Below, in pieces: positions 1 to 26,378 of a stretch of DNA of 29,595 bases. Below the pieces are notes generated by a model. The model was not told the origin of the DNA, made no database searches, and saw only the letters and a list, made by a program, of their open reading frames with translations. The position numbers and the translations under genes were made by a program. This stretch comes from a virus: positions 1 through 29,595 of IMG/VR virus record IMGVR_UViG_3300047370_000083. The stretch is one strand, 5' to 3'. How positions within the stretch are numbered: position 1 is the stretch's first letter; each line of letters opens with the position of its first letter.

Positions 1-431
1 CAACATCAGGAAGCACAGTTGGTGATACTGCAACATTACACTCATTATCACAAGAAGATATTTCTGGCCAGAATGCACCTATTACTCCAGACCTTGTGGT
101 TGACCATTCACTCAATGGGTCGTATGCAATACGAACAGTTGTCATTGATGCAGAGGATAAACTCAAAACAAGTCTATTACTTGAAAAGAAATATGAAGGA
201 TACTTCTATAAAATACCGACCATTGCAGAAGTTCGTTCTGCACTAAAGAGTTCGTATGTGGGTGATGCAGTAGGCAGTATTCTGGTTGCGGATGGTTTGT
301 TGAACCCTGAATACAAAATACCAACACCGCCTGCAATTGGTAGAACTGTGAAAAAGTCTGCATCATCAAGATTTGGTTATCAACCTATCGGGAATGCGCT
401 TGAAAACAGAGGAAAGAGATTTAGACCATGA
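1..431 (+). CDS. Baseplate/hub-region protein, C-terminal part (5' end outside window)
   Basis: The reading frame is open from the first base (first full codon at position 3) to a TGA at 429-431, giving about 142 residues of a protein that starts upstream. The visible part is mixed: a polar Thr/Ser/Gly-rich stretch, a beta-rich section (SYAIRTVVIDAEDKLKTSLL), a short helical section (IPTIAEVRSALKSSYVGDAV), and a basic, proline-containing tail ending in KRFRP. I do not recognise the family from this fragment. Its stop overlaps the next start as ATGA and the following genes are baseplate wedge genes, so a virion baseplate or hub role (for example a gp5-like hub or its partner) is inferred from position only. 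An internal ATG at 96 would give a shorter protein, but the upstream in-frame coding sequence argues against it. Confidence 0.6.
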   Translation, partial: TSGSTVGDTATLHSLSQEDISGQNAPITPDLVVDHSLNGSYAIRTVVIDAEDKLKTSLLLEKKYEGYFYKIPTIAEVRSALKSSYVGDAVGSILVADGLLNPEYKIPTPPAIGRTVKKSASSRFGYQPIGNALENRGKRFRP

Positions 432-1027
432 TTATATTAGCAGACCCAGTATACAACCCAGAGAATCAAGTATCAATCAGTTCTGCCACTAAGTTAGGGC
501 CAGGCATCACGATTGCAAAGTTCTTGGGTGCATATGGTGACCGAACACCTTTTAATCACATCGAGTTTGAGTTTAATCGTAGGCGTATCGCTCGTAATCT
601 GTATCTTCATGCAGAAGCAATGAGAGTAATCAACGATAGTCCATTGTTCAATGATATCCGTCTGATTGTTTCGGAAGGATTGTTACAACCCAAAGATATA
701 TGGGCATCTCTGATTGGTGATGAAGTGATTGAAGATAAACGATTTGGTCGCTTAGTTTATTATCAAGTCATAGACAAAGATGGTAAGATTGACTTTGAGA
801 AAACCTTTGATATCGCTGAATATTGGAAAGACTATATTAGTTTTGACAGACTATATCTAGATTATGATTCGTATGACCCTAGTGGTAAATTGACTGGTCA
901 GATTGGATTACGATTCAACGATGTCCCTGAGAGTTTTGATGTGACCTTTTCAAATGATATTCAGACATGGTATAATGGGACACTTATGAGTAAAAATGAA
1001 TTGATAGAAATAAGAGAAACTGACTAA
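428..1027 (+). CDS. M15 peptidase-like protein without zinc ligands, baseplate region
   Basis: This 199-residue protein has an order of motifs that resembles phage-type M15A (VanY-like) peptidoglycan peptidases. These are LGPGITIAKFL near residues 23-33 (family: LSPHFTLAEF), a helix then NDIRLIVSEGLL at 75-86 (family: IRVTSGYRS), RFGRLVYYQV at 105-114 (family: HxxGxAxD), ISFDRLYLDY at 137-146 (family: FDQLILEY) and GQIGLRF at 157-163 (family: WVHVSY). The three metal ligands appear lost: the expected His, Asp and His align with about Lys104, Tyr111 and Gly160. It is therefore probably a structural descendant and not an active enzyme. Its start overlaps the upstream stop (ATGA), and gp25 follows 20 bases downstream, so it is likely a baseplate component. 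The family assignment is by eye and moderate; the virion role is inferred from context. It does not resemble T4 gp53 beyond similar length. Confidence 0.6.
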   Translation: MIILADPVYNPENQVSISSATKLGPGITIAKFLGAYGDRTPFNHIEFEFNRRRIARNLYLHAEAMRVINDSPLFNDIRLIVSEGLLQPKDIWASLIGDEVIEDKRFGRLVYYQVIDKDGKIDFEKTFDIAEYWKDYISFDRLYLDYDSYDPSGKLTGQIGLRFNDVPESFDVTFSNDIQTWYNGTLMSKNELIEIRETD

Positions 1028-1047: not shown

Positions 1048-1494
1048 ATGGCAAGAAGAGCATTCGCACAGGAAGATAATAATATCAACACTGCTTCGGT
1101 AACGACTAGTAGAACGAAGCAGTATACAGATATTGACCTATCATTTACGGCAAAACCGTCCTCTGGAGAAATATTCAAGAAGACGGACGCAGCTGCTGTG
1201 AAGCAGTCAGTCAAAACGTTGGTGATGTGTAATAAATTGGAAAAACCATTTCGTCCTGATTTTGGAGGAGATGTCCGAGCACAACTCTTTGAACTGGCAT
1301 ATAAAGGTAAGGATGCACTCTTACGCGATAGAATTATTAATACTATTCAATTTTACGAACCTCGAGCAGAAGTTCTTGATTTGATAATAGATTTGCAGAG
1401 TGATTATAATAGTTTAAGTGTAACACTAAAATTCAAAGTGGTGAATACTGAAGAACAAGTAGAATTCACTTCAACACTATCAAGGTTAAGATAA
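1048..1494 (+). CDS. gp25: Baseplate wedge protein gp25
   Basis: This 148-residue protein matches the gp25 family, the wedge component that joins the gp6 ring to the tube and sheath start and is related to GpW and type VI secretion TssE. Diagnostic features are the N-terminal YTDIDLSFTAKPSSGEIFKK segment, the central LEKPFRPDFGGDVRAQLFE stretch and the FYEPRAEV motif near residues 103-110, which contains the conserved EPR of the family. Length is close to T4 gp25 (132 residues). No Shine-Dalgarno sequence is visible before the ATG, while a perfect late promoter lies 6 bases upstream. gp6 starts one base after the stop codon, so the two are almost certainly co-expressed. Identification is firm. 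Confidence 0.93.
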   Translation: MARRAFAQEDNNINTASVTTSRTKQYTDIDLSFTAKPSSGEIFKKTDAAAVKQSVKTLVMCNKLEKPFRPDFGGDVRAQLFELAYKGKDALLRDRIINTIQFYEPRAEVLDLIIDLQSDYNSLSVTLKFKVVNTEEQVEFTSTLSRLR

Positions 1495-13285: not shown

Positions 13286-16200
13286 ATGACAAGTTATGTT
13301 CCGTTAAAATTAAAAGACAGCGCGAACTTTGAAGAATTCGATACGACAAGTAGTATTGCATCAAATGATGAAAACTATTTGGCATATCAGGTAGGTCTTG
13401 CACTTTCCGAAGCAGATAGTAGTGAACCAGCTTCACTATCTCTCTTAGCTGATTTAAGCACAGATTCCGCATATTTTATTGGTGATTTAATAAACACTGA
13501 ATATGATTCAGCCATTGGAACTGGCGGAAGTGGTTCATTTTTAACTTTTAGTCAAACTGTTCAGTCAGTGTTTCAAAGAGACGGAACAGTATCTTTTACT
13601 GACAGTGACTACCGTATTCCTATCTACACAAAAAATTATTCAGGCGCTGACCAATTGGATGACACAACAGCGAATTTGTCTCAAGTCAATCTCTTGCGAA
13701 ATCGCACAAAATTTGATTATGTTGAAATTGTTTCGGTTAGTAATGGTGATGACTTAACAATAAAAATACCCTCTGAAAGAAATGTAATATTCGATAGGTT
13801 TGTTGGAACTTCAATCAATCAACATGATAGTGATGTAAATGGATATGCAACACATGCTGGCACTGTAGAGTTTGGTAACGCTCTTCATGAACCACCAAAA
13901 ATGACGGTGGAGGCTGCTGTTGGTGTAACAACTGGTAGGTATGAAGATTCTGATAATGCATATGTGATTAACTTTAGAAATGCAACTATTGGTGGAACGG
14001 CATATGCTTCGGCAGAAGCAAAATCAGAATATGAAATTGGCGACAATGGAATATATGTAAATGCTTTAACTCAAAATAATTTTCAAACAATAATCAATGA
14101 GATGGATAGTTCTGCTAGAAGCAGTCTTGTTGATAGATTGAATAGACGTATTTTTACATCTGACTATCCAGGCTCGTATAGACTTAGTTCAGTCTCTCCT
14201 GACAGTGCCGACTGGTCACTTGATTTGTCTAATGTAATGACTGATACGAGAGATAGTGCTGGTAACTATTCCTTACAATATAATATCTATAAAAGAACCT
14301 CAATGGCGGCTCCCAATACGGTTCTCCCATTCGCAATCAAACGGTCTAATGGTGATAGTGGAGACTATCAGGGTCTTCAAAGAATGACACCTAGACAGGT
14401 GAAGTATTCTTTGGGTCAGGAAGCAAAGAAAAGAATCGCGTCTTCTTCTACAAATATTGGTAATTACAGAATCCTGAGTTCTGCGACAGGCACACCATCA
14501 GATATAGGTTTATCAGGAACATGGACGGCAAAGGGAACTGCAACAGATACTCGTCAAGCGGTTGTTGATGCTAACTATACAAGAACTCGTTCAAGTTCAT
14601 TTTCTCGATTAAGAACTTCTACGTTTGCGGGTAACTATACAAGAACTCGTTCAAGTGCATTTTCAGAAGATTATACAACAACTAGAGAATCAACATATAG
14701 TGCAAACTATACCAGAACACGAGCAAGTAATTACTCACTCGGTTTTGTGGGTGACTTTATTGCTAACTATACAACAGAACGTGACCAGAATTTTACAAGG
14801 AATCGAATTGCCCCTGGCGCATTAAGTTATACAAGAACTCGTTCAAGCACCTTTACTGGTAATTTTAGTAGAATACTACAATATACAACAAACTATACTG
14901 GTGATTTTGTAGGCCCAGTGACATCAGGTTTATCAGTTATTGGCACGGCCGACATCCAGATAACCTCACAAGCGTTATTTAATGGCGCTGTTTCAGCTCT
15001 CGTAACTGTTCCGTCTGGAACAAAGTCTGTTATATTGTGTGCTAATGTTAAAACGAATGGTAATAGACGGTCATTGTTTTCCGCTGTTACGTTTGGTGGC
15101 ACCGCAATGAACGAAGCGATATCTCAAAATAACACGCCCGCTGAATATACTTTTGATACAGGAATTTATAATGTAAACTATACTTCTACAGGAGTCAAGA
15201 CTGTTTTTTTCTTCCTGAGTAATAATCCACAAGTCTATGGTATGGGTGCAAGGGTTATTTTTCTCAATAAGGCGTTTAGTAGTTATTCGCCAAGTGATGC
15301 TGATGGCGTCTCCACAACAGGTTCAAGTGGCAGAGGCGATATCACTAACCACAACAAATATGCCAATGGCATAACTGTAGCAAGTGCCACATGTCGAGCG
15401 CCGAATAGTGGTGCTTATGTTGCTCAGGTTGGCGATTTGGCGTATCTATTCTCACCTTATATCGATACTACTGGTTGGAATCAGGGTTTTATTCAACATC
15501 CAAGTGGCAATAACAGTGGGTCTATCACTGGTTATGAATTGCCAACTGGTGTTGGGCCAGCTGGGACAATTTCATTTCGTTATATGCAAAATGATTTTGG
15601 TGAAAGTGCGGCGGTAGCCTCTTGGGCACCATCAAAGTTTGAACAAGATTATGATGTTACTTATACTGGTAACTTTACGAGAGTTGGTCAATATACGTCA
15701 AATTTTTCTAGAAATTTCACAGGTAATTATACTAGAGATGCAGTTTATACTGGTAACTATACGGGAGACTTTTTAGGCGATTTCACAAGAAACCGTCAGG
15801 CCACAAGACCAGACGACTTTACTCGTGACTTTACAGGTGACTATAGTAATGACTATACCAGAACAAGAGTATCAACATATACTCGTAACGCCACTGGTGT
15901 ATTTACGGGTGGATATACTGGTTACTATACTGGTGATTTTACTAGTAATTTCACTAGAATTAGCACAGCAACTACAGGAGCAACTCAACGAGTTCTTATT
16001 GGGCCGGCAAGTAGTAATACCAATTATTGGTGGTCGAGCAGTAACCAAACCAATCGTGTATCTTTTGGAAGTTTTGAATCTTGGTTTGCTGCTACCAATC
16101 TAATTGCTTCCAGTGGTAGTTCTGCCATAAGCGTTGAAAACTACAATACAAATGGGACATACTTACATGGATATTATGGTCATCCAGCGAGCGCGAGCGT

Positions 16201-17035
16201 CTCAAGAACAAATAAATCACCTAGTTATACAGAGACTATCAGGACAGCGACTACCGCACAACTAACTTGGATACGAGGTCATCAGCCGGGTCTTGCGGCC
16301 ACAAACGGACAGGATTGGATTGGCGCATCGTCTGGCATTAGTTATCCTTATTCGAATAGTGATTACATTCAGGCCGGCCCGAATGGAACGCAATGCCCAT
16401 ATGGCGCAACATTCACGAAAAACCTAACTCGTGCTTATGCTCTGAATAACTCATCACAACCAACATTTGCTAATGGAATATACCCTGTAGGTTTTGATGA
16501 TGATTATGGCACGGGTGGAATATTTTGTTTTTATGCGAACAATAATAATGTTTATCTAGTTGGTTCGAATTGGTTAGATTCACAAAGCACAAGTAGTAAT
16601 CGAGGGATTACAGTCTGTGATTTTTCAACGGCGGTTTCTACAAATTATACTGGTAACTATTCAACTGATTTCTTACAGAACTTCACCCGTCTAATTGAAA
16701 CTAATTTTACAGGCGACTTTGCTGGTAACTATTCTAGGAACTTCACGGGGAACTATACTAGGGATTTCACTAGAACACGCACATCAACATACTTGGGTGC
16801 TGAAACATTTAGTCGTGATTTCACAGGTAACTATGAGGGTAACTATACTAGGAACTTTACTCGAACATTTGAAGGTAACTACACAAGAGACTTTACTGGA
16901 AACTACGAAGGTAATTATCAACAAAACTATATTGGTAACTATGTAGGTGAGTTTTTAGGTAACTATGCTGGTGATAGTATTGGTTCAGGGTCTAGTAACA
17001 TTGAGACATATACACTCTATGTAAGAACTGCATAA
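13286..17035 (+). CDS. Large twin fibre with tetrapeptide lattice and two globular islands (1249 aa)
   Basis: Layout by eye: an N-terminal region of about 428 residues containing SNDENYLAYQVGLALSEADS (26-45), IFTSDYPGSYRL (289-300) and GTWTAKGTATDTRQ (411-424); lattice 1 (429-546); island 1 (547-785); lattice 2 (786-893); island 2 (894-1115); lattice 3 (1116-1232); and a C-terminal tag NIETYTLYVRTA. In the lattices every fourth residue is Phe, Tyr or Arg, preceded by Asn/Asp/Ser/Thr and followed by Thr/Ser/small then Gly/Arg, as in GNYTRTRSSAFS. Island 1 resembles a beta-sandwich of the type VTVPSGTKSVILCAN...VTFGGTAMNEA seen in bacterial and phage surface proteins. Island 2 is Trp/Tyr/Asn/Ser-rich and unrecognised. 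The next gene is a paralog lacking both islands. GGAG at 13273-13276 supports the start. It is most likely an adhesin or side fibre; there is no T4 counterpart that I recognise. Confidence 0.85.
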   Translation: MTSYVPLKLKDSANFEEFDTTSSIASNDENYLAYQVGLALSEADSSEPASLSLLADLSTDSAYFIGDLINTEYDSAIGTGGSGSFLTFSQTVQSVFQRDGTVSFTDSDYRIPIYTKNYSGADQLDDTTANLSQVNLLRNRTKFDYVEIVSVSNGDDLTIKIPSERNVIFDRFVGTSINQHDSDVNGYATHAGTVEFGNALHEPPKMTVEAAVGVTTGRYEDSDNAYVINFRNATIGGTAYASAEAKSEYEIGDNGIYVNALTQNNFQTIINEMDSSARSSLVDRLNRRIFTSDYPGSYRLSSVSPDSADWSLDLSNVMTDTRDSAGNYSLQYNIYKRTSMAAPNTVLPFAIKRSNGDSGDYQGLQRMTPRQVKYSLGQEAKKRIASSSTNIGNYRILSSATGTPSDIGLSGTWTAKGTATDTRQAVVDANYTRTRSSSFSRLRTSTFAGNYTRTRSSAFSEDYTTTRESTYSANYTRTRASNYSLGFVGDFIANYTTERDQNFTRNRIAPGALSYTRTRSSTFTGNFSRILQYTTNYTGDFVGPVTSGLSVIGTADIQITSQALFNGAVSALVTVPSGTKSVILCANVKTNGNRRSLFSAVTFGGTAMNEAISQNNTPAEYTFDTGIYNVNYTSTGVKTVFFFLSNNPQVYGMGARVIFLNKAFSSYSPSDADGVSTTGSSGRGDITNHNKYANGITVASATCRAPNSGAYVAQVGDLAYLFSPYIDTTGWNQGFIQHPSGNNSGSITGYELPTGVGPAGTISFRYMQNDFGESAAVASWAPSKFEQDYDVTYTGNFTRVGQYTSNFSRNFTGNYTRDAVYTGNYTGDFLGDFTRNRQATRPDDFTRDFTGDYSNDYTRTRVSTYTRNATGVFTGGYTGYYTGDFTSNFTRISTATTGATQRVLIGPASSNTNYWWSSSNQTNRVSFGSFESWFAATNLIASSGSSAISVENYNTNGTYLHGYYGHPASASVSRTNKSPSYTETIRTATTAQLTWIRGHQPGLAATNGQDWIGASSGISYPYSNSDYIQAGPNGTQCPYGATFTKNLTRAYALNNSSQPTFANGIYPVGFDDDYGTGGIFCFYANNNNVYLVGSNWLDSQSTSSNRGITVCDFSTAVSTNYTGNYSTDFLQNFTRLIETNFTGDFAGNYSRNFTGNYTRDFTRTRTSTYLGAETFSRDFTGNYEGNYTRNFTRTFEGNYTRDFTGNYEGNYQQNYIGNYVGEFLGNYAGDSIGSGSSNIETYTLYVRTA
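14570..14923 (+). repeat. Tetrapeptide lattice 1 of the 1249-aa fibre
   Basis: This stretch encodes residues 429-546. From Tyr431 to Arg507, every fourth position (431, 435, 439 and so on) is Tyr, Phe or Arg without a slip, giving twenty consecutive units. The DNA unit is 12 bases, with synonymous variation between copies. Confidence 0.85.
14924..15640 (+). other. Globular island 1 inside the lattice
   Basis: Residues 547-785 interrupt the period-4 repeat. The section has alternating hydrophobic strands (SALVTVPSGTKSVILCANV, LFSAVTFGGTAMNEA, VKTVFFFLSN, ARVIFLNKAFSSYS) and returns to the lattice at Asp788-Tyr-Asp-Val-Thr-Tyr. The pattern resembles a carbohydrate-binding-like beta-sandwich often fused to phage or bacterial surface repeats. 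The homolog call is by eye. Confidence 0.6.
15641..15964 (+). repeat. Tetrapeptide lattice 2 of the 1249-aa fibre
   Basis: This stretch encodes residues 786-893, including VTYTGNFTRVGQYTSNFSRN and NYTGDFLGDFTRN. The 4-residue period is the same as in lattices 1 and 3. Asn-aromatic-Thr/Ser triplets are frequent. Confidence 0.83.
15965..16630 (+). other. Globular island 2 inside the lattice
   Basis: Residues 894-1115 form a second, unrelated interruption. It is rich in Trp, Tyr, Asn, Ser and Gly (NYWWSSSNQTNRVSFGSFES, QLTWIRGHQPGLAATNGQDW) and contains Cys1037, Cys1081 and Cys1111. I do not recognise a family. It is a candidate receptor-binding head domain because it is unique in the window and displayed between lattice segments. 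Confidence 0.55.
16631..16981 (+). repeat. Tetrapeptide lattice 3 of the 1249-aa fibre
   Basis: This stretch encodes residues 1116-1232. Asn or Asp falls at 1120, 1124, 1128, 1132, 1140, 1144, 1148, 1152, 1156 and 1160. After one phase shift near 1170 it falls at 1178, 1182, 1186, 1190, 1198, 1202, 1206, 1210, 1214, 1218, 1226 and 1230. The aromatic residue follows directly each time. Confidence 0.85.
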
Positions 17036-17038
17036 ATA
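17031..17038 (+). promoter_or_regulatory. Probable late promoter (CATAAATA) before the second twin fibre
   Basis: CATAAATA fits the NATAAATA cyanophage late consensus and overlaps the stop codon of the 1249-residue fibre. With T4 spacing the start would fall near 17044, only 3 bases before the ATG at 17047. An AGGG at 17038-17041 would serve as ribosome binding site only on transcripts that begin further upstream. Confidence 0.5.
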
Positions 17039-17046
17039 GGGTTATC

Positions 17047-18777
17047 ATGGGAACTACACCACTAAAACTTGACGGAACTGACGGCAACCTTAAACAGATG
17101 ACAACATCTGAAGAGAACTATCTCGCATATCAGGCGGGATTGCATCTTGCATCTTTGGATTCTGGTCAAACCTATGTGATAGGTAATGTCTCTCATTCTG
17201 GAACAAATCGTTCAATCGGTTCTATAGTTGATACCAAGTTTGATGACGGAGTTGGAACACATGGATTTGCTAATGGAACTGTTCCTGTTACTCAAACAAG
17301 TTATGCCTTCAATCAACACGCAGATTCGATAACATATTCAGACTCAGCGGATTTCAGAATTCCTACTGAATTTGTTGATAATAGTGGTTCTGCTGAAATT
17401 CATGAACTTACAACAAGTGAACAAAACACACTAGGTGATAGAATAGCATCTGCACTTTTTACCAATGAATATCCTGGCTGTTACAAGTTAGGGTCATCAA
17501 CGCCAGGCAGTGATTGGTCAGTTCACAAATCAGGTATCTTTGAGGATACAATTGAAACTGGTGTATCAGGAACTTCATATAATCTATATGTAAAAGACTC
17601 TATCTCATCTCCACCGTCTGCTGTCCGACCAGTTAGTGTCAAACGTTCAAGTGGTGCAACAGGAACGTTTCAGGGTATTCAGGAGATGTCTGATGCAGAG
17701 GTGAGGTATACTTTTGGTGCTCTTTGTCAAAGTCGGATGGCATCTGCTTCAAGTGCTATTGGTAATTATCTAATCAGGTCATCTGCTCAAGGTGCGCCAT
17801 CAGGTGGAACATGGGTTGCAAAAGGAACTGCAACTGACAGTCGTAGGGATACAACTGATACAGATTATACTAGAACATCTGTAACTGAATTTACAAGAAC
17901 TAGGTCAAGTGCCTTTCAGGGTAATTACTCTAGGGTCTTTTCTGCTGACTATACAAGGAATTCAACTGAAAACTTCACACAAGTTTTTACGGGAAATTTC
18001 GTAGGCGACTTCACTGGTAACTATGCTACAAGTTATACGAGGACTTCTACCCGTGAAACTGATACGGATTTTACCAGAAGTTCTAGTGGTGACTTTATTG
18101 GTAACTATGCTACAGATTTCACAAGAAACTCTACCAGAAATTCAACTAGAGATTCAAATAGAACATCAACTCGAACTAGAGTTCTTACCTATGCCGGCAA
18201 CTTTGCAGGCAACTTTGCTGGTAACTTTGTTGGTAACTTTGTTGGTGACTATACTCGCGGTAGACTCTATTATTCTGACGGAACATTTTATGGCACTGCG
18301 GGTAACTATGTAGGTAACTACGCCAGAACATCAACTCGAACATCAACTCGAACATCAACTCGAACTAGAGTTACTAACTATGTCGGCGACTTTGCAGGCA
18401 ACTTTGCTGGTGATTTTACAGGCGACTTTACAGGCGACTTTGCTGGTAACTATGTTGGTGACTTTACCAGAACTCGGGCGGTTGATTTTACAGGTAACTT
18501 TATTGGCGATTTCACAGGTAACTATGAGGGTAACTATGCTACGGATTTCACAAGAAACTCTACCGCTGACCGAACTGAGGATTTCACTGGAGACTTTGTA
18601 GGTGACTTCACAGGTAACTATGAAGGTAATTACTCTAGGAATTTTTCAGCTGACTATAGTCGAGACTTCATAGGTAACTATGGAGAAAGTTTTTTAGGTA
18701 ACTATGTCGGAACAACAATCGCAGCATCGACTTCTACAATTGAAACATACACCCTATATGTTAAAACCGCATTGTAA
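17047..18777 (+). CDS. Small twin fibre with uninterrupted tetrapeptide lattice (576 aa)
   Basis: This is a paralog of the preceding 1249-residue fibre. Matching landmarks are TSEENYLAYQAGLHLASLDS (20-39), LFTNEYPGCYKLGSSTPGSD (137-156), VKRSSGATGTFQGIQEMSDA (198-217) and GTWVAKGTATDSRR (254-267), plus the C-terminal tag TIETYTLYVKTAL. The head is about 155 residues shorter than that of its twin. Residues 273-555 form one long lattice of about 70 four-residue units, interrupted only by a short GRLYYSDGTFYG segment near 405-416. Units vary by block: TRTS blocks, GNFA/GNFV blocks and GDFT blocks. No globular island is present. Probably a structural fibre or shaft partner of its twin; the shared ends suggest a common docking site and a common tip. 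No database family is recognised. Confidence 0.83.
   Translation: MGTTPLKLDGTDGNLKQMTTSEENYLAYQAGLHLASLDSGQTYVIGNVSHSGTNRSIGSIVDTKFDDGVGTHGFANGTVPVTQTSYAFNQHADSITYSDSADFRIPTEFVDNSGSAEIHELTTSEQNTLGDRIASALFTNEYPGCYKLGSSTPGSDWSVHKSGIFEDTIETGVSGTSYNLYVKDSISSPPSAVRPVSVKRSSGATGTFQGIQEMSDAEVRYTFGALCQSRMASASSAIGNYLIRSSAQGAPSGGTWVAKGTATDSRRDTTDTDYTRTSVTEFTRTRSSAFQGNYSRVFSADYTRNSTENFTQVFTGNFVGDFTGNYATSYTRTSTRETDTDFTRSSSGDFIGNYATDFTRNSTRNSTRDSNRTSTRTRVLTYAGNFAGNFAGNFVGNFVGDYTRGRLYYSDGTFYGTAGNYVGNYARTSTRTSTRTSTRTRVTNYVGDFAGNFAGDFTGDFTGDFAGNYVGDFTRTRAVDFTGNFIGDFTGNYEGNYATDFTRNSTADRTEDFTGDFVGDFTGNYEGNYSRNFSADYSRDFIGNYGESFLGNYVGTTIAASTSTIETYTLYVKTAL
17863..18711 (+). repeat. Long tetrapeptide lattice of the 576-aa fibre
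   Basis: This stretch encodes residues 273-555. The repeat is [NDST]-[FYR]-[TASVE]-[GR], with a DNA unit of 12 bases. Blocks of nearly identical units, such as the GGCAACTTTGCA type near 18196-18250, indicate local expansion. Confidence 0.87.
18328..18363 (+). repeat. Three perfect 12-bp tandem copies (ACATCAACTCGA)
   Basis: ACATCAACTCGA occurs three times head to tail without a mismatch (18328-18339, 18340-18351, 18352-18363), encoding the TRTS block. A related single unit lies near 18163-18174. The length is a multiple of three, so gain or loss of copies keeps the frame. Confidence 0.92.
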
Positions 18778-18808
18778 AAAATGAATATATAAAATTGAAA
18801 TTAACTAT

Positions 18809-18813
18809 GGAGA
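18809..18813 (+). promoter_or_regulatory. Shine-Dalgarno GGAGA that selects a GTG start
   Basis: GGAGA touches the ATG at 18814, which is too close for initiation there. It sits 6 bases before the in-frame GTG at 18820, which is the better start. Confidence 0.6.
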
Positions 18814-18819
18814 ATGATA

Positions 18820-19272
18820 GTGCAGAGAATATGGTTAAATAATGCATTTTGGGAAACACCCAAAAGACAAATGTTGAATGCAATTAGTGAGGTGACCGAA
18901 GAACCTAATAAGGTGAAACGGGAAGTTCACAAATTAAATAAATATAATGATGACGGAACACCAAACGAACTTTTTAATGAAGCGATTGAATTTTTAGGTG
19001 AAGAGTCTATCAATGCAGCAACTAACAAACGTCTTGAAAAGAAACAAGCAGAAGCTGAAATTGAAAAAGAAAAAAAGTTAGAGCAAGAACGTTCTAAGAA
19101 ACTCGAAAAACTGTTTGAGTATAAACTAGAGACATTTGAGATTGATGAAATAAAGAATTCAAAAAACCGTTTATTAAAATCAAAGTTGAGACGTTCTAAA
19201 TCGATTCCTGAAGTGAACCTGTATGCTATGATGATTGTTAAGGAATCTTTAGAAGATGAACACATCAAGTAA
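18820..19272 (+). CDS. Coiled-coil protein, possible fibre assembly factor (about 150 aa)
   Basis: The start chosen is the GTG at 18820 because GGAGA at 18809-18813 gives a proper 6-base spacing. The in-frame ATG at 18814 abuts that site and would add two residues. The N-terminus is Trp-containing (QRIWLNNAFWETPKRQMLNA). The middle is a long charged helix (about residues 72-125) with KRLEKKQAEAEIEKEKKLEQ and ERSKKLEKLFEYKLE, strongly predicted by eye to be a coiled coil. The end is basic and then helical (SKLRRSKSIPEVNLYAMMIV). I recognise no family. It directly follows the twin fibres and overlaps the glycosyltransferase start by 17 bases, so a chaperone or adaptor role for the fibres or the modifying enzymes is plausible but inferred only from position. 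Confidence 0.8.
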   Translation: MQRIWLNNAFWETPKRQMLNAISEVTEEPNKVKREVHKLNKYNDDGTPNELFNEAIEFLGEESINAATNKRLEKKQAEAEIEKEKKLEQERSKKLEKLFEYKLETFEIDEIKNSKNRLLKSKLRRSKSIPEVNLYAMMIVKESLEDEHIK

Positions 19273-20002
19273 GGGTTTTGTAATTGTCGCGTCAAAGAAT
19301 TCAAACTTCTATATCTATGCGACTAACCTAGCAGAATCAATCAAAGACTTTTATCCTGAATCGCAAATCACTCTGGTAACAGAAGAACGTTTTATTGATG
19401 GACGGGCTGATGTTGCAGATAACATCATATATTGTGACAATCACTATCGTGCCAAACTCTGGGGTATGGCACAAACTCCATATGACATAACAATGTATGT
19501 TGATGCAGATATGGATTGCGAACACGAAGACATCATGACCGTGTGGGATAATCTAAAAGACTATGATATGGTCTTTCACGAGTTGACAAAAGAAAGAGAG
19601 AAATTTTACGCAATACGAGAGTTTTCATATAATGGTAATATGGAGAAATATACCTTATGCGGTGGTGTCTGTTTGTATCGCAGTTCTAATCCTCTGGTTC
19701 GGGAGTTCATGGAAGACTGGTTTGAATTATTTAACAAACAATATAATGGTCTGTGGACTCCTAATGGATTTAATGATGAACAGTGGAGACAAGACCTTGC
19801 TAAATTTGACCAGACAACACTTTGGTGGTTGGTTAACAAGGTAGATAAATATAAGGACTTAAAGATTGGTTTCTTTCATGATGATATTCGATGGAACTAT
19901 TTTACCCAATATGGTTATGAAGGTCTAAAATCCATTGAAGGTAAACCACCAGTTTTACGTCACTACTCTGGTTCTTTGAAAAAGGATACACTCATAGTAT
20001 GA
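19256..20002 (+). CDS. GT8-like glycosyltransferase
   Basis: The 248-residue protein has the outline of a retaining GT-A glycosyltransferase of the GT8 (glycogenin-like) type. A Rossmann-like start is KGFVIVASKNSNFYIYATNL (6-25). The metal and nucleotide-sugar motif is YVDADMD, with the DxD at Asp83-Ala-Asp85. CGGVCLYRSS (135-144) matches the acceptor-side GG motif and FDQTTLWWLV (184-193) the DQ motif. LRHYSGSLKK (235-244) gives His236, Gly239 and Lys242, as in the GT8 HxxGxxK signature. All key residues seem present, so activity is likely. No signal peptide or membrane segment is seen, so it acts in the infected cell's cytoplasm. It overlaps the preceding gene by 17 bases and the next by ATGA. 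Surrounded by fibre genes, it may decorate fibre protein; an unknown glycan substrate or a DNA base are alternatives. Confidence 0.8.
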   Translation: MNTSSKGFVIVASKNSNFYIYATNLAESIKDFYPESQITLVTEERFIDGRADVADNIIYCDNHYRAKLWGMAQTPYDITMYVDADMDCEHEDIMTVWDNLKDYDMVFHELTKEREKFYAIREFSYNGNMEKYTLCGGVCLYRSSNPLVREFMEDWFELFNKQYNGLWTPNGFNDEQWRQDLAKFDQTTLWWLVNKVDKYKDLKIGFFHDDIRWNYFTQYGYEGLKSIEGKPPVLRHYSGSLKKDTLIV

Positions 20003-20667
20003 AAAATGTCCCCATAAAAAATCAAGAGATTCTTGAGGCCTTAAATAACTTTCTATGGTTTTATAATAATCGGGGAATTATTGAAAGAAATTATGTATTA
20101 CATGGAACTGAGAGACAAAGAAAGGAGTATGTGAGTTCTGAGTATCGTGACAAGGTTATCGCAATGAATGAAAACCATGATGGTTTCCCAGAAACAATAC
20201 ACTCTTACGCTCTCAAGGCTGACCGTATCGTTCATGTCAACAATAACAGTGTTGAGGTGGCGGAGGCAATATCAAAATATAGTGATTATAATCAACAACT
20301 AGCACATATGTTATGCACAAAAAATAATGCACTAACTCAAATGTATCCGCCTGGCGGATTTATTGCTTGGCATAATAATGCAAATGCATCTGCATATAAT
20401 ATTATTTTCTCTTGGTCAGAGACGGGAGAAGGATGTTTTAGGTATGTTGATGGTCATACAGGTGACGAAGTTGTCATGCAAGATGTAAAAGGATGGCAGT
20501 GTAAAGCAGGATACTTTGGTGCATATGGTGAACCGTGGTATAATCGTGTATATCATGCAGCGGAAACTGACTGTTGGCGACTAACGGTATCATACATGTT
20601 TGATAGAAGTCAAATGTCTATGGGACTGCAAGACGAAATTGTAGAAGAAATAATGTCTGAAATATAG
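19999..20667 (+). CDS. 2-oxoglutarate/Fe(II) oxygenase-like protein with HxN in place of HxD
   Basis: The 222-residue protein carries the core of a double-stranded beta-helix oxygenase of the prolyl/aspartyl hydroxylase type. YPPGGFIAWHNNANASAYNI (116-135) places His125 and Asn127 where the HxD/E metal motif is expected. VYHAAETDCWRLTVSYMF (184-201) supplies the distal His186 and an Arg194 that would bind 2-oxoglutarate. Many phage relatives have a similar WHxNxN motif, so the Asn may be a family trait; such proteins could bind metal with two His plus water or halide, or be inactive. The start overlaps the glycosyltransferase stop (ATGA), so the two are translated together. A role in hydroxylating or otherwise modifying fibre protein is inferred from neighbours. 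The substrate is not known. Confidence 0.75.
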   Translation: MKNVPIKNQEILEALNNFLWFYNNRGIIERNYVLHGTERQRKEYVSSEYRDKVIAMNENHDGFPETIHSYALKADRIVHVNNNSVEVAEAISKYSDYNQQLAHMLCTKNNALTQMYPPGGFIAWHNNANASAYNIIFSWSETGEGCFRYVDGHTGDEVVMQDVKGWQCKAGYFGAYGEPWYNRVYHAAETDCWRLTVSYMFDRSQMSMGLQDEIVEEIMSEI

Positions 20668-20696: not shown

Positions 20697-20726
20697 AAGA
20701 CAAAGAAGAAGTAATGGGTTTTGAAA

Positions 20727-21095
20727 ATGGCATTAATTTCATATGAAGATATTGTAATAAATCAAGGCACCGATGTCGCTATTGAGATTCATCTCATCAA
20801 TGACAGTGGTTCTGCATATGATTTAACATCACGAACAGCTACAGCAAAAATGAAACGTAGATATGGTGACTCGGCAAATGACCCTGATACGGTTACATTT
20901 AATGCCGTGGTTACCACACCGCCAGAAGATGGTATTGTTACATTATCTCTTACAAACGCCGAAACTGATGCTCTGAAAACAAGAGGTCGGTATGTTTATG
21001 ATGTAGAAGTATCTTACGCTGATAGTGATAACAATCAAATAATTCAAAGAGTTCTCGAAGGACAAATCGAAGTCTCACCTTCGGTCACAAAATAA
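20727..21095 (+). CDS. Ig-like/BppU-N-like accessory structural protein (122 aa)
   Basis: The ATG at 20727 is chosen; an in-frame TTG at 20721 would add two residues and an ATG at 20714 is out of frame. The predicted beta-sandwich has strands such as DVAIEIHLINDSGSAYDLTS, ATAKMKRRYG, DGIVTLSLTNAETDALKTRG and YVYDVEVSYADSDNNQIIQR, ending with VLEGQIEVSPSVTK. This is the layout of BppU N-terminal-like domains that often accompany phage receptor-binding proteins. It sits 12 bases before the giant fibre and behind a late promoter, so it is probably an attachment or adaptor domain for that fibre. No enzymatic residue pattern is seen. The family label is by fold pattern and moderate. Confidence 0.8.
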   Translation: MALISYEDIVINQGTDVAIEIHLINDSGSAYDLTSRTATAKMKRRYGDSANDPDTVTFNAVVTTPPEDGIVTLSLTNAETDALKTRGRYVYDVEVSYADSDNNQIIQRVLEGQIEVSPSVTK

Positions 21096-21107: not shown

Positions 21108-24100
21108 ATGACTGAAAAGATTATTGTCAAGAAGGTGGTAGTAGGAACTCCTGTAAAACGAGTGACTGCTGGTTCTTTCTCTCTCACCAACTTGGGTGGT
21201 GTGGATGTTACTGCCACCGAATCTGATGGTTCTATCCTTGCATATAACCCCACAACAGGGAACTATGAAATAACGAATCTTCGTAATGATGATAATGTCA
21301 CTGTCACATTTGATAGTGCTGAAAATACATATTCCTTTGCTTTCACCAATACAACATTCACTGGTTCTCTGATACCAGATAGTAACGAGGTATATGACCT
21401 CGGCAGTGAAAATAAAAAGTTTCGTAGTCTTTTCCTGTCAGGCAACACCATCACTCTAGGGTCAATTGACCTAAAAGATAGTAGTGGTGCATTGGTGGTC
21501 GTGGATAGTGACGGAAACTCTATCAGTCTCAACATCTCTCTAGGAACTTCTCACACAGACGGTAATACGGATATTCTGACGTTTGATAGTGGGTCAGGTC
21601 AGTTTACATTTAGAGATTCAGATGTTGCAAGAACTGATGTTGCAGAAATATTTCATCAAGGCATTACAGTAGACAATGGCGCAACGATTGACTCCGCAAC
21701 AATCACCAATCTCGCAAATACACAACTGACGGGTTCTCAAGCGACCTTTGATAGTGCAGATATTGGAAACCTGAAGATTACGGGTAACCTCAATGTAACG
21801 GGGACAACCACTACTCTGAATACAGAGACAATCGCACTCGCAGATAACACTATTGTTTTGAACTCAAATGCAACGGGTTCTGCAACCGAAGATGCTGGTA
21901 TCGAGATTGAACGTGGTGATGATGCAAACAAAACATTCCTCTGGGATGAGACCAACGATTATTGGTCAATCGGGTCAGAGACTTTCAACACCACAGGTAA
22001 GATTCTCTTTGCAAACGTATACAGCACAGAGGGTGACCTTCCAAGTGCATCGACATATCATGGTATGTTTGCACACGTTCATGCAACGGGTCGTGGATAC
22101 TTTGCACACGGCGGTGCATGGCACAGACTGGTTGACTCCGATACGACAGGTGAACAACAAGTATATTCATTGTATTCCAACAATGCGAGAGTCACCAACG
22201 CACAAATTGATTCTGCAACCATTACTAATCTAGCAAGCACTCAATTGACAGGTTCACAGGCAACCTTCGACAGTGCGAATATCACATCTCTAGGTGGTAT
22301 TACTGGATTTGATGCAACATCAACTTCTACCTTGCGTGGATTGTTCTCCTCTGCGGGTGACCTAACATACAATAGTGGAACAGGTCAATTCTCCTTTGAT
22401 GTAGAACAGGTTTATACTAAATCTAATTTTGACAGTGACTTGGGTGCAGCCCTTGATGGTGGCACGGGTATCACTTACGATAGTTCGACAGATACAATTT
22501 CTATAACGAACACGGGTGTTACTGCGGGAACTTATGGTTCGGCGTCTTTGATTCCTGTCTTTACTGTGAATGCACAGGGTCAACTTGATAGTGCGGGAAC
22601 AGTTTCAGTTGCGGGTGTGACATCATTTGCATTCGATTCCTCAAATGGTAACATCTCTATCGGAACTGCTGATGGTGCAACATTCCTCACAACGATTACC
22701 CTTGACCCATACACAACGAGTAATCTTGTAGAGGGAACAAACCTTTACTATACAACCGCTCGTGCTGACTCTGATGCGAAGGCATCTCTCCTTGTCAACG
22801 ATACGGGTGGTGATGGTTCACTGTCTTACGATAGTGCGACTGGTGTATTCACCTACACAGGGCCATCGTCCAGTGAGGTTCGCGCACACTTTAGTGCTGG
22901 CGGAGATATGACGTATGACAGTTCAACGGGTCGTTTCTCGATTGATGTTGAACAAATCTACAGTCAAGCAAACTTTGATAGTGACTTCCTGACACGATTA
23001 CAGACACAGATTGACAGTGCAAGTTTTGACCAACTTACTGCGGAATTCATTCATACGGATTCTGCATCCTTCGATAGTGCAACGATTACGAACCTTGCGA
23101 ACACCCAGTTTACTGGTTCACAGGCGACTATCGATAGTGCTGATATCACAACTATAAAATCGACTACCGCGACCATCACAAATGCGACAGTTGATAGTGC
23201 AACAATTACAAATCTTGCAAACACTCAATTAACTGGTTCACAGGCGACTATCGATAGTGCTGATATCACAACTATAAAATCAACCACTGCGACTATCACA
23301 AACGCAACCGTAGATTCGGCCACAGTAACTAATTTAGCAAATACACAGTTCACTGGTTCTCAAGCAACTATTGACAGTGCAAATATTGGAACGTTAAAAT
23401 TTACTACACTGACCAATACAACAAGTGACATTACTGAAGGAACGAATTTATATTATACAGATGCAAGAGCGAGAAATTCAATCGGTCTCTCCGATGTCGG
23501 AGGAGACGGTTCACTCGCATATGATTCTTCAACAGGTAGATTTACATATACTGGCCCAAGTGCTGCAGAAGTTCGAGCGCATCTGACCGCAAACAAAGGT
23601 TTATCGGTAACGAGTGGTGAGTTCAATATCGACTCTGCAAATGTCAAAGGTATGTTACAGGCGGGAACAGGTGTCACATACGATAGTTCCAATGGTCTTA
23701 TCAGTATCGGACAAAATGTTTCAACAACAAGCGATGTGACCTTTGGTAAGATACATGGTGATTCCGCAGAATTGCATGTTATAGATTTTGATACAACTAT
23801 CTCTGGTCATGCACCGTATAAAGAAGGTAGATTATTCTACGATAATACGCATAAAACCCTCAACTACTATGATGATATCACAAATGTTGTTCATGAGATT
23901 GGTCTGGAAGAACACCAACGTGTATTCAATAATACAGGCGCCACTATCAAGAAGGGTTCAGCACTCTACTTCTCTGGTAACTATACATCAGGAGCAATCG
24001 ATGTTCCAACTGTAGGTCTTGCAGATGCGACAGATGTAAACGCATATAACGCACAAGGTCTTGCAGCTGGAGATATTGCAAACCTCTCCTATGGTCATTG

Positions 24101-26378
24101 TATTATCGCTGGTCAGTTGACCGAAGTAAATACCGCACATTTGAGTGATGGACAAAACTTCTTTGTATCAGTGACACAACCTGGCTCACATCAAAACCAA
24201 TCTCCGACATATCCAAACTTCCCAATGTGTCTGGGTTGGGTTGTTCTTTCGGGTGACTCTAGCAACGGTATCCTGTTGGTTAATCAACAAAACCACTCTG
24301 TGAACTCATTCCGTGTTCGCACATCTGCACATATCGGTTCGGACTTACAAGTCGATGGTAACCTGACCATTCTGGGTAGTCAGACTACTGTGGGTCAATC
24401 AAATGTGACACAAGGTGCGCCTTTCTATCGTCTCAATGAAGGTGACGCGATTGGTGAAGCAGGAACGACATATACTGGAACGGGTCTTGACGATGCCTTC
24501 TTCTCTGGTCACTTTACAGGAACAACAGCACAGACCTACTATGTCCGTATTGACGGTGCGGGAACTGGTGCGGGTGGTGTAGATACCTTTGAGGTTGCAT
24601 TGGGTAATGATAGTGTATTTGCCTCACCTATCCTTACAAAAGTTGCAATCACAGGTAATAAACAAGAAATTCATTCTACCGATAATATTTCGGTTGAGTT
24701 CGGTGCAACCACGGGTCACGACTCAGGTGACCTATGGCAAGGTGTTGCATCTCCTGTAAATGTTGATACTGGTTTCTTCACAAACAGAAACACAGGCACA
24801 TCAGGTGTCGGTTATACCCACATGGGTCTCTATTTTGATATCTCTGACGAGAAGTGGAAACTCCTTGATGAGTATGACTCAACACCAACAGGAACTATTA
24901 ATGCTGCGGATTCATCATTCAGTCTTGCAACATTGGTTGCAGAAACCTTTGAAGGTAATCTGACTGGTGCGGTGACAGGTAATGCCTCGACTGCAACGGC
25001 ACTCGCAAGTGGTCGTAACTTCTCCATATCTGGTGATGTGACTGCAAGTGCCGTATCGTTTGATGGAACGGGTGCGGTAACATTAAGTGCCGCAATCACT
25101 GCTGATACGATTATCAATGCAGACATCAAATCAGATGCCGCAATTGCAGATACTAAACTTGCAACAATATCAACATCTGGTAAAGTAAGTAACTCTGCGA
25201 CTACGGCAACAGACGCAAATACCAACTCTGCGATAGTTGCTCGTGATGGTTCGGGTGGATTTACAGCAGGAACAGTCATACTAAGTGACCTACATGTTGG
25301 TAATCTTCACGTTGACTCAGCAGATATTATTACGATTGCGAGAGCAAATCTTTCAGGCGGAACAGGTATTACATATAATACAGGGACAGGTGCAATCACA
25401 ACAACAGATGGAGATATCGTTCACGATAATCTGTCAGGGTTTGTTGCAAATGAACACATCGACCACAGTGGTGTATCGATTGTCGCTGGTAAAGGTCTTT
25501 CAGGTGGCGGTGATATCACCGCATCAAGAACAATCGATATTGACTCTGCAAATGTCAGAGGAATGTTTGTTGGTGGAACTGGTCTTACATACACAAGTGG
25601 CACAGGCACATTTGATATAACAAATAGTGGTGTCAGTGCTGGAACGTATGGTTCTGCCTCTTTAGTTCCAGTTCTGGTAGTCAACGCACAAGGTCAAATT
25701 ACAAGCGCATCAACAACTTCAGTTGCGGGTGTATCCTCGACAGCATTTGATTCTGGAACAGGTCAATTTACTATTAGCACTGCTGATGGTGGTTCGTTTG
25801 TAACCAATATCACATCGAGAAGGTCAAATCTCCCAGATAGTGATATGTTGTTTGGTGACAATAAACAATTAAAATTTGGCACTGGTAATGACTTAAGCAT
25901 TCGACATACTGGCGCAATATCACATATATCAAATTTCAATGGTCAACTTCGTATTACAGGCGATTCCGCAGCGGGTTCATATTTGCAATTCTTGGATGGC
26001 GGTGATATGGTCATCCGTGATGTTAATGACAATCCAAAAATGGTTTTTGACGCAACAAATGGTAAATTTGCTTTCAATTCCGTTAATACCCCTACTAACG
26101 TTCTTGATGTTGCAGGCCAAAATAATGCTGCTCATTTGGGTATTTTAGCGGACGATAATTCAACCGCTAACCTGACACTGAAGACAAGTAGTGCCGAGTT
26201 CAAACATGTCGCCTACAATAGTAAATATGAAATTAGAGACCAAAACAACTCTGGGGCGGTTCGATTAGAGATTAGTAGTGCTGGTGTTGTTGGCATGGAT
26301 TCAGCATTGGTCGGCGGTAAACCTGTCGCACAAAGATTGATTTCAGTGTTCGATGCCTCTGGAACGTTGTTAAATTAA
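21108..26378 (+). CDS. Giant modular tail fibre (1756 aa)
   Basis: The start has a clear AAGAGG ribosome site at 21097-21102. Modules in order: an N-terminal linker ([20 protein letters not shown], about 24-43); a [20 protein letters not shown] block (about 99-118); a [20 protein letters not shown] repeat found five times (195, 368, 656, 696, 736); [20 protein letters not shown] with AWHRLVD (about 309-345), a module I recall from cyanophage virion proteins; repeats of the YDSSTGxFS form; two copies of an 82-residue GTYGSAS module (451-532 and 1489-1569); a receptor-like middle ([20 protein letters not shown] near 935); a [20 protein letters not shown] module (about 1282); and a C-terminal section ending in [11 protein letters not shown]. 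No S74 intramolecular chaperone motif is seen at the end. It is probably the main host-recognition fibre. Its codon use resembles the rest of the window. Confidence 0.87.
22458..22703 (+). repeat. 82-residue GTYGSAS module, first copy
   Basis: It encodes [20 protein letters not shown] through [12 protein letters not shown] and pairs with the copy at 25572-25814. Both contain [15 protein letters not shown] or TVNAQGQ, and SVAGV followed by AFDS. The DNA of the two copies has diverged. Confidence 0.85.
23073..23400 (+). repeat. 120-bp tandem repeat in the giant fibre
   Basis: Copies start at 23073, 23193 and 23313 with an exact 120-base (40-residue) spacing; the third is partial. Between copies one and two, 23112-23161 and 23232-23281 are identical over 50 bases, which points to a recent duplication or homogenisation. 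The encoded unit carries [20 protein letters not shown] and [20 protein letters not shown]. Confidence 0.9.
25572..25814 (+). repeat. GTYGSAS module, second copy
   Basis: This 81-residue counterpart of the copy at 22458-22703 is located about 3.1 kb downstream in the same gene, which suggests modular growth of the fibre by internal duplication. Confidence 0.85.

Follow-up and report, generated by a model that had tools for sequence, protein, structure and literature searches.

Genes for proteins with Phe or Tyr at every fourth residue are near-invariantly linked to genes for a coiled-coil-type protein (CC), a glycosyltransferase (GT) and an oxygenase-like protein (OX). This array protein-CC-GT-OX block probably constitutes a cassette for modification of a virion protein, in which GT most likely O-glycosylates tyrosines of the arrays. 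The original prediction had proposed a self-contained cassette, with a glycosyltransferase and an oxygenase serving the array protein, and the linkage among relatives supports it well beyond the DNA from which it was made.

The block is located in a 29,595-nucleotide stretch of viral DNA (the window), which is a fragment of a T4-like phage (Table 1). Baseplate genes (phrog_219 and phrog_438) lie upstream and are followed by a structural gene run that includes the cassette; past this run come head-tail adaptor (phrog_211), neck (PF11649, phrog_460), tail-sheath stabiliser and terminase genes. The cassette is thus placed between the baseplate genes and the head-tail adaptor/neck genes, and the corresponding place in pelagimyophage genomes is named the host recognition cluster in the available part of their description (PMC7029224). 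The modifying genes had been predicted to lie directly 3' of the 1249-aa protein A; in fact, the 576-aa protein B intervenes, whereas the coiled-coil-type gene and the ATGA joint, where the GT stop and the OX start overlap (19999-20002), are indeed present. The C-terminal motif of protein A is common to many relatives.

Table 1. Features of the array-CC-GT-OX block and its downstream neighbour in the window (nucleotide positions unless marked aa).
Feature	Position	Strand	Description
Array protein A	13286..17035	+	1249 aa; N-terminal domain, three period-4 aromatic arrays, C-terminal motif ETYTLYVRTA
Protein A arrays	aa 429-545, 784-900, 1118-1233		Two non-repeat inserts between them
Array protein B	17047..18777	+	576 aa; N-terminus similar to that of protein A; C-terminus ETYTLYVKTAL
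Protein B arrays	about aa 271-410 and 431-556		Period-4 aromatic
CC	18814..19272	+	Coiled-coil-type, small, charged, probably helical; weak phrog_4375 match (E 0.0038)
GT	19256..20002	+	Glycosyltransferase, predicted GT-A fold; glycogenin (GT8) is the closest solved fold
OX	19999..20667	+	Oxygenase-like, predicted PHD2/P4H-type fold; H125-x-N127, H186, R194
ADP	20721..21095	+	Related to phrog_3304 (L-shaped tail fibre assembly) and phrog_1084

In the arrays of both proteins, Phe or Tyr occupies every fourth residue, the usual tetrad being [N/D]-[F/Y]-x-[G/R]. Aromatic residues with other aromatics at both -4 and +4 number 34 in protein A and 31 in protein B, whereas 200 shuffles of each gave no more than 9 and 6, and no other plus-strand ORF of at least 100 aa in the window exceeds its own shuffles for period-4 aromatics. 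Spacings of 4, 8, 12, 16 and 20 predominate among the aromatics of protein A (57, 55, 44, 39 and 38 pairs), and the same spacings are represented by 40, 36, 35, 32 and 30 pairs in protein B. Since the array codons differ synonymously, the repeat is maintained at the protein level. The array proteins are probably long structural proteins of the tail-fibre kind.

Tyr is not the sole residue permitted at the array position: among 113 non-redundant array proteins, Phe is found in its place at 45% of the positions. With Arg two residues downstream, Tyr is enriched over Phe (Mantel-Haenszel odds ratio 5.4). All 90 non-redundant ORFs located directly upstream of CC carry period-4 Tyr, none of them (0/90) being Phe-only, and 86 of the 90 meet the array threshold; their Tyr share extends from 0.10 to 0.99. 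For instance, Phe fills about 90% of the array positions in loci L351 and L440, and the arrays of L484 and L476, with very variable positions around the aromatic, have Tyr at 372/375 (3 Phe) and 351/373 positions, respectively. In L484, Tyr recurs every fourth residue and little else is constant, and L451/L455 combine hexapeptide NYAGPT repeats with a short period-4 stretch. Tyr repetition thus outlasts these changes of array form. Lys and Pro make up 0.1% and 0.3% of 33,574 array residues, and this near-absence leaves no collagen-type acceptors there; collagen-like Lys/Pro hydroxylation of the array was therefore ruled out.

To examine the linkage from the array side, viral contigs were searched with a DNA pattern of four consecutive G-[ND]-[FY]-x units, which is blind to the enzymes. 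At least 118 array-pattern loci were read, of which 112 were in frame and 97 had a strong array, 54 of the latter with at least 1.4 kb downstream; left out of the count were 6/118 out-of-frame loci, 15/112 weak arrays (fewer than 10 positions) and, among the matches listed, 43/97 strong-array loci that were too short downstream. Among the matches listed, 52 of the 54 testable strong-array loci lead into GT and OX, and CC is present in 53. The two loci devoid of GT are uninformative by position: a second array runs to the locus end in L182, and the locus end cuts the CC gene in L122. Of the strong loci with CC among the matches listed, all except four have an array-to-CC gap of between -70 and 115 nt, and two of the exceptions (L150 and L163) have a second array within the gap. 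As for the weak arrays, L086, L095, L109, L133, L141, L147 and L159 have at least 2.4 kb downstream and no cassette gene there, and L151 has CC, GT and OX; the weak arrays of L095 and L099 consist of glycine repeats of the GGDF type.

As a control, we used arrays of four consecutive G-[ND]-[VL]-T units, which have the same period as the aromatic arrays and no aromatic residue. GT, OX and CC are all missing from the 120 such loci (0/120), 58 of which extend downstream by 1.4 kb or more. Since these control arrays retain Asn/Asp, Thr and Gly, the enzymes seem to track the aromatic position, a suggestive result, as the control proteins might have no relation to the array proteins. Phage S-RIM2 was not accepted as a relative, since the stretch that matches consists of Gly-Asn/Asp-Val/Leu-Thr repeats devoid of aromatics, and neither GT nor OX occurs within the 26 kb of S-RIM2 examined.

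The same linkage is observed when the enzymes are the starting point. Viral contigs supplied relatives of GT and OX, and genome contigs further relatives of GT; the relatives scans covered the best 80 of 489 GT and the best 80 of 574 OX relatives, with a bias toward close relatives. Because many loci share one contig, GT ORFs were clustered at 95% identity, so that 363 loci gave 283 GT ORFs of at least 200 aa and 90 clusters; GT pairs within the linkage set go down to 26% identity. Among the matches listed, an array is present within 4.5 kb upstream of GT in 82/85 testable clusters (253/258 loci), CC adjoins GT in 89/90 clusters (276/277 loci), and OX is downstream of GT in 86/87 testable clusters (269/270 loci). 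Again among the matches listed, ADP follows OX in 69/84 clusters (231/256 loci) and is absent or relocated in 15/84, which retain CC-GT-OX; ADP is a usual, not an obligate, neighbour of the cassette. In an earlier, smaller set, CC adjoins GT in 128/128 testable loci, and the OX start is at -3 from the GT end (ATGA type) in 75/116 loci.

The array exceptions are a short weak array (L359/L433), a Tyr array of another period (the hexapeptides of L451/L455) and a strong array whose end lies 4.8 kb upstream of GT, just past the 4.5-kb limit (L463). The sole cluster without adjacent CC and OX, L404, comes from a contig labelled as a gammaproteobacterial MAG and has its enzymes apart, one Tyr array being followed by GT and ADP and a second Tyr array by CC and OX. 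Ten of 11 large records have GT, in a single copy each; the 11th (behind L093), without GT, is an out-of-frame pattern match. No GT turned up in six OX-only contigs, which carries little weight as these contigs are 17-31 kb fragments. Among 50,697 isolated-phage records, GT, CC and OX queries matched only Phage C48C1. Collectively, the lattice, GT8-like and oxygenase genes, whose co-occurrence had been proposed as a check, are near-invariantly linked across relatives, and with an array at 82/85 GT clusters the GT/oxygenase pair is not frequent without the lattice.

Neither GT nor OX could be usefully assigned with Pfam, PHROGs or PDB sequence profiles, so their folds were predicted. The GT model (52 sequences, pLDDT 93) has a predicted GT-A fold closest to GT8 structures: by Foldseek, glycogenin is the best match (E 3.1e-8), followed by LgtC (E 4.0e-8) with UGGT close behind, and VIA-align superimposes the model on glycogenin with a Z of 17.4 and an rmsd of 3.4 over 196 residues, at 17% identity. 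Further matches include a PBCV-1 capsid-modifying enzyme (Z 14.3) and a Skp1 galactosyltransferase (Z 14.9). The early guess of a GT8/glycogenin-like enzyme is thus borne out by a confident predicted model with glycogenin and LgtC as top matches. By sequence, none of 24 members matches the Pfam GT8 family at E up to 1, and 14 of the 24 give a weak Glycos_transf_2 match; hence we call GT a GT8-like protein in fold and not a member of GT8. D83 and D85 (DxD), D185 and H236 are invariant in 52/52 sequences. GT8 enzymes have a C-terminal motif of the HxxGxxKPW type; in GT, H236 is followed by K243 (51/52), with an H+7 spacing and no PW. Glycogenin is self-glucosylating, placing glucose on a Tyr hydroxyl, and LgtC is a lipooligosaccharide galactosyltransferase. 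Since LgtC matches almost as well as glycogenin, the common predicted fold leaves the acceptor unfixed.

This near-equal match to LgtC is also in line with another role, in which GT belongs to a host-interaction island and, instead of acting on the fibre, remodels the host surface polysaccharide (O-chain), thus excluding rival phages. In the available text on pelagimyophages, such a role is proposed for GT8-type enzymes of the same region, between VrlC and gp14 (PMC7029224). However, a host-acting enzyme need not be tied to one fibre type, and here the array accompanies 82/85 GT clusters and GT accompanies 52/54 array loci (among the matches listed) and 0/120 Val/Leu-array loci. Furthermore, the constant OX partner would remain unexplained, and we regard this role as rather unlikely.

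Alternatively, the block could be a structural operon co-inherited in one broad phage lineage, with no functional coupling of its products. The window and C48C1 are both T4-like, and the divergence of GT correlates with that of OX (r 0.81) no more strongly than with that of ADP (r 0.80); GT and OX thus show no co-divergence beyond that of GT and ADP, and this correlation was discarded as a proof of interaction. On the other hand, CC-GT-OX is kept in the 15/84 clusters in which ADP was lost or moved, and it stays united in L050, L129 and L463, where insertions of about 3.3-4.3 kb separate CC from the array. In L404, moreover, each enzyme is found with its own array. Simple co-inheritance is accordingly an improbable account, and the modification cassette is the reading that we favour.

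About 25 Asn-X-Thr/Ser triplets, almost all Asn-(Phe/Tyr)-(Thr/Ser), had been noticed in the lattices and taken as acceptor sites. The recount agrees, with 25 Asn-x-Ser/Thr in the three arrays of protein A, 24 of them N-[FY]-[ST], and they are mildly above register-preserving shuffles (P 0.03, 0.025 and 0.006 for the three arrays), as could be expected if GT acted in N-linked glycosylation at Asn-x-Ser/Thr. In protein B, however, the triplets are not above such shuffles (P 0.77 and 0.99), and Asp, rather than Asn, precedes [FY][ST]. Across the 113 non-redundant array proteins, the array aromatic is preceded by Asn at 49% and Asp at 24% of positions and followed by Thr at 26% and Ser at 14%. 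Over these proteins N-[FY]-[ST] tetrads are slightly depleted, with 1065 observed against 1110 expected within proteins (z -3.2), and the coupling of Asn with Ser/Thr has a Mantel-Haenszel odds ratio of 0.80. Diverged arrays, such as the first array of L404 and those of L484 and L084, are largely devoid of Asn before the aromatic. It seems that the Asn-x-Thr "sequon" is a by-product of tetrad composition. The family-wide independence test and protein B rule it out as a selected feature, so the proposal of a designed acceptor site is not upheld, and N-linked glycosylation is very improbable.

The OX model (61 sequences, pLDDT 93.6) matches P. putida P4H (E 2.0e-5), and Z is 11.5 for PHD2 and 10.6 for bacterial P4H, the predicted fold being a double-stranded beta-helix of the PHD/P4H type. 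H125, N127, H186 and R194 are invariant (61/61). The distal His and Arg of the iron site are thus kept, but HxN is present instead of HxD/E in 61/61 sequences, and N127 would stand in the place of the usual Asp/Glu iron ligand. The guess of an oxygenase is supported as to the predicted fold and not as to the canonical triad. Given HxN, we describe OX as prolyl-hydroxylase-like by predicted fold and do not claim membership of the canonical Fe(II)/2OG oxygenases. An acidic ligand is dispensed with in AspH, and halogenases carry HxG/A. OX also has paralogues that lie apart from arrays, at other places in the same genomes. C48C1, for instance, has two, carrying HNN and HTN and located between a tail-tube and a UvsY-like gene and beside a NifU-like gene; HxN so seems to be a trait of the OX group. 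In some phages, pairs of a TET/JBP-type oxygenase and a glycosyltransferase modify DNA, and OX paralogues adjoin recombination and replication genes, but hypermodification of phage DNA by GT and OX is highly unlikely, with predicted folds of PHD2/P4H (OX) and GT8 glycogenin (GT) and the pair placed within a structural gene run, behind array genes.

In the modification cassette, with the arrays as putative substrate and Tyr as putative acceptor, CC would, upon late expression, bind, hold or present the array protein, possibly as a chaperone or adaptor. GT, as a glycogenin-like UDP-sugar transferase, would most likely add sugar to the array tyrosines in the host during assembly, and OX would most likely oxidise residues of the same arrays, in a reaction order that is equally presumptive. 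A coat of sugar could change how the fibre binds its receptor, protect the fibre, or preserve its stiffness and solubility. C48C1 genes annotated as UDP-glucose dehydrogenase and nucleotide-sugar epimerase agree with a sugar supply. Against the cassette stand the Phe at 45% of array positions, reaching about 90% in L351 and L440, the OX site without the usual acidic iron ligand and the OX paralogues away from arrays; furthermore, gene order alone can persist through common descent. More tentatively, as a possibility that we hold with some doubt, a Tyr-ladder fibre, with Tyr/Phe every four residues and tens to hundreds of them per protein, could be made into a sugar-coated rod by the glycogenin-like enzyme, the HxN oxygenase oxidising the same rod; this would represent an undescribed phage post-translational system.

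Comparison with known systems reveals both resemblances and differences. Glycogenin is the closest solved fold of GT, which has the invariant DxD, Asp185 and His236, but identity is only about 17%, no glycogen is involved, and the presumed acceptor here is a separate long repeat protein. PHD2 and bacterial P4H share with OX the predicted fold and the conserved distal His and Arg, whereas OX has HxN for HxD in 61/61 sequences and the arrays are nearly devoid of Pro. PaTox and YeGT are described, in the available part of the source, as bacterial GT-A enzymes that glycosylate protein Tyr on eukaryotic GTPases (PMC11152714); by this description, they resemble GT in the GT-A fold and in Tyr as proposed acceptor, and differ in their eukaryotic targets. 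The pelagimyophage host recognition cluster similarly belongs to T4-like marine phages and carries fibres and GTs before gp14, but its GTs are ascribed to the host O-chain, and the accessible text mentions neither aromatic arrays nor an array-CC-GT-OX block (PMC7029224). The 2OG oxygenases of marine T4-like phages are ascribed to host nitrogen/2OG signalling in the available part of their description (PMC3037559). In the accessible portions of the open-licence PMC literature, no description of the aromatic array or of the array-CC-GT-OX block was found.

Mimivirus already offers an example of a viral hydroxylase and a viral glycosyltransferase that act on a repeat protein: according to the available parts of the sources, its collagen lysyl hydroxylase and glucosyltransferase serve a collagen-like repeat protein (PMC9546862, PMC5802723). 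The cassette resembles this system in combining a viral oxygenase and a glycosyltransferase for a repeat protein. It differs in that hydroxylysine is the substrate there, whereas the cassette arrays are almost without Lys or Pro, and no sequence relation between the enzymes was found or expected. The near-invariant tie to one kind of repeat protein provides a concrete candidate substrate, in the virion, for at least one large group of the GTs and oxygenases of marine T4-like phages. If our reading is true, bacterial viruses would have in this cassette their own equivalent of the enzymes with which mimivirus modifies collagen, one whose acceptors follow a defined geometry and whose iron site is an unusual variant.

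The cassette occurs naturally in a split form. The phage-like contig L404 (4376-10951) carries two distinct Tyr arrays, one followed downstream by the predicted glycosyltransferase (GT) and ADP, the usual neighbour after the predicted oxygenase (OX), and the other by the small charged protein (CC) and OX. The cassette was also found on two contigs labelled as bacterial MAGs (L403, Sphingobacteriales; L405, Bifidobacterium breve), which are probably phage contigs mis-binned into these MAGs.

Gly-Asn/Asp-Val/Leu-Thr arrays with the period of the aromatic arrays are common among viral contigs, and reading of 120 such loci (L204-L323, 58 with at least 1.4 kb downstream) revealed no cassette enzymes. 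The Tyr spacing is four in the usual arrays but six in the NYAGPT repeats of L451 and L455, which precede the same set of CC-GT-OX genes. Among 113 non-redundant array proteins, tetrads ending in Arg strongly favour Tyr over Phe (odds ratio 5.4).

In L052, L064 and L074, the HxN oxygenase copy is of the tail-structure/UvsY-side type, with neither GT nor array found around it in the stretch fetched. Cassette-bearing records contain one to three HxN oxygenase copies.

In the window, an imperfect 120-bp tandem repeat (2.6 copies) occupies 23073-23380.

Array proteins, oxygenase paralogues and repeat-containing ORF
Feature	Location	Remark
Array protein, NYAGPT hexapeptide repeats	L451:5539-6852	upstream of CC-GT-OX
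Array protein, NYAGPT hexapeptide repeats	L455:3148-4491	upstream of CC-GT-OX
HxN oxygenase paralogue, Phage C48C1	L485:18267-18920	distant from array
HxN oxygenase paralogue, Phage C48C1	L485:40130-40804	distant from array
Fibre-like ORF, 1756 aa	window 21108-26378	contains 120-bp tandem repeat
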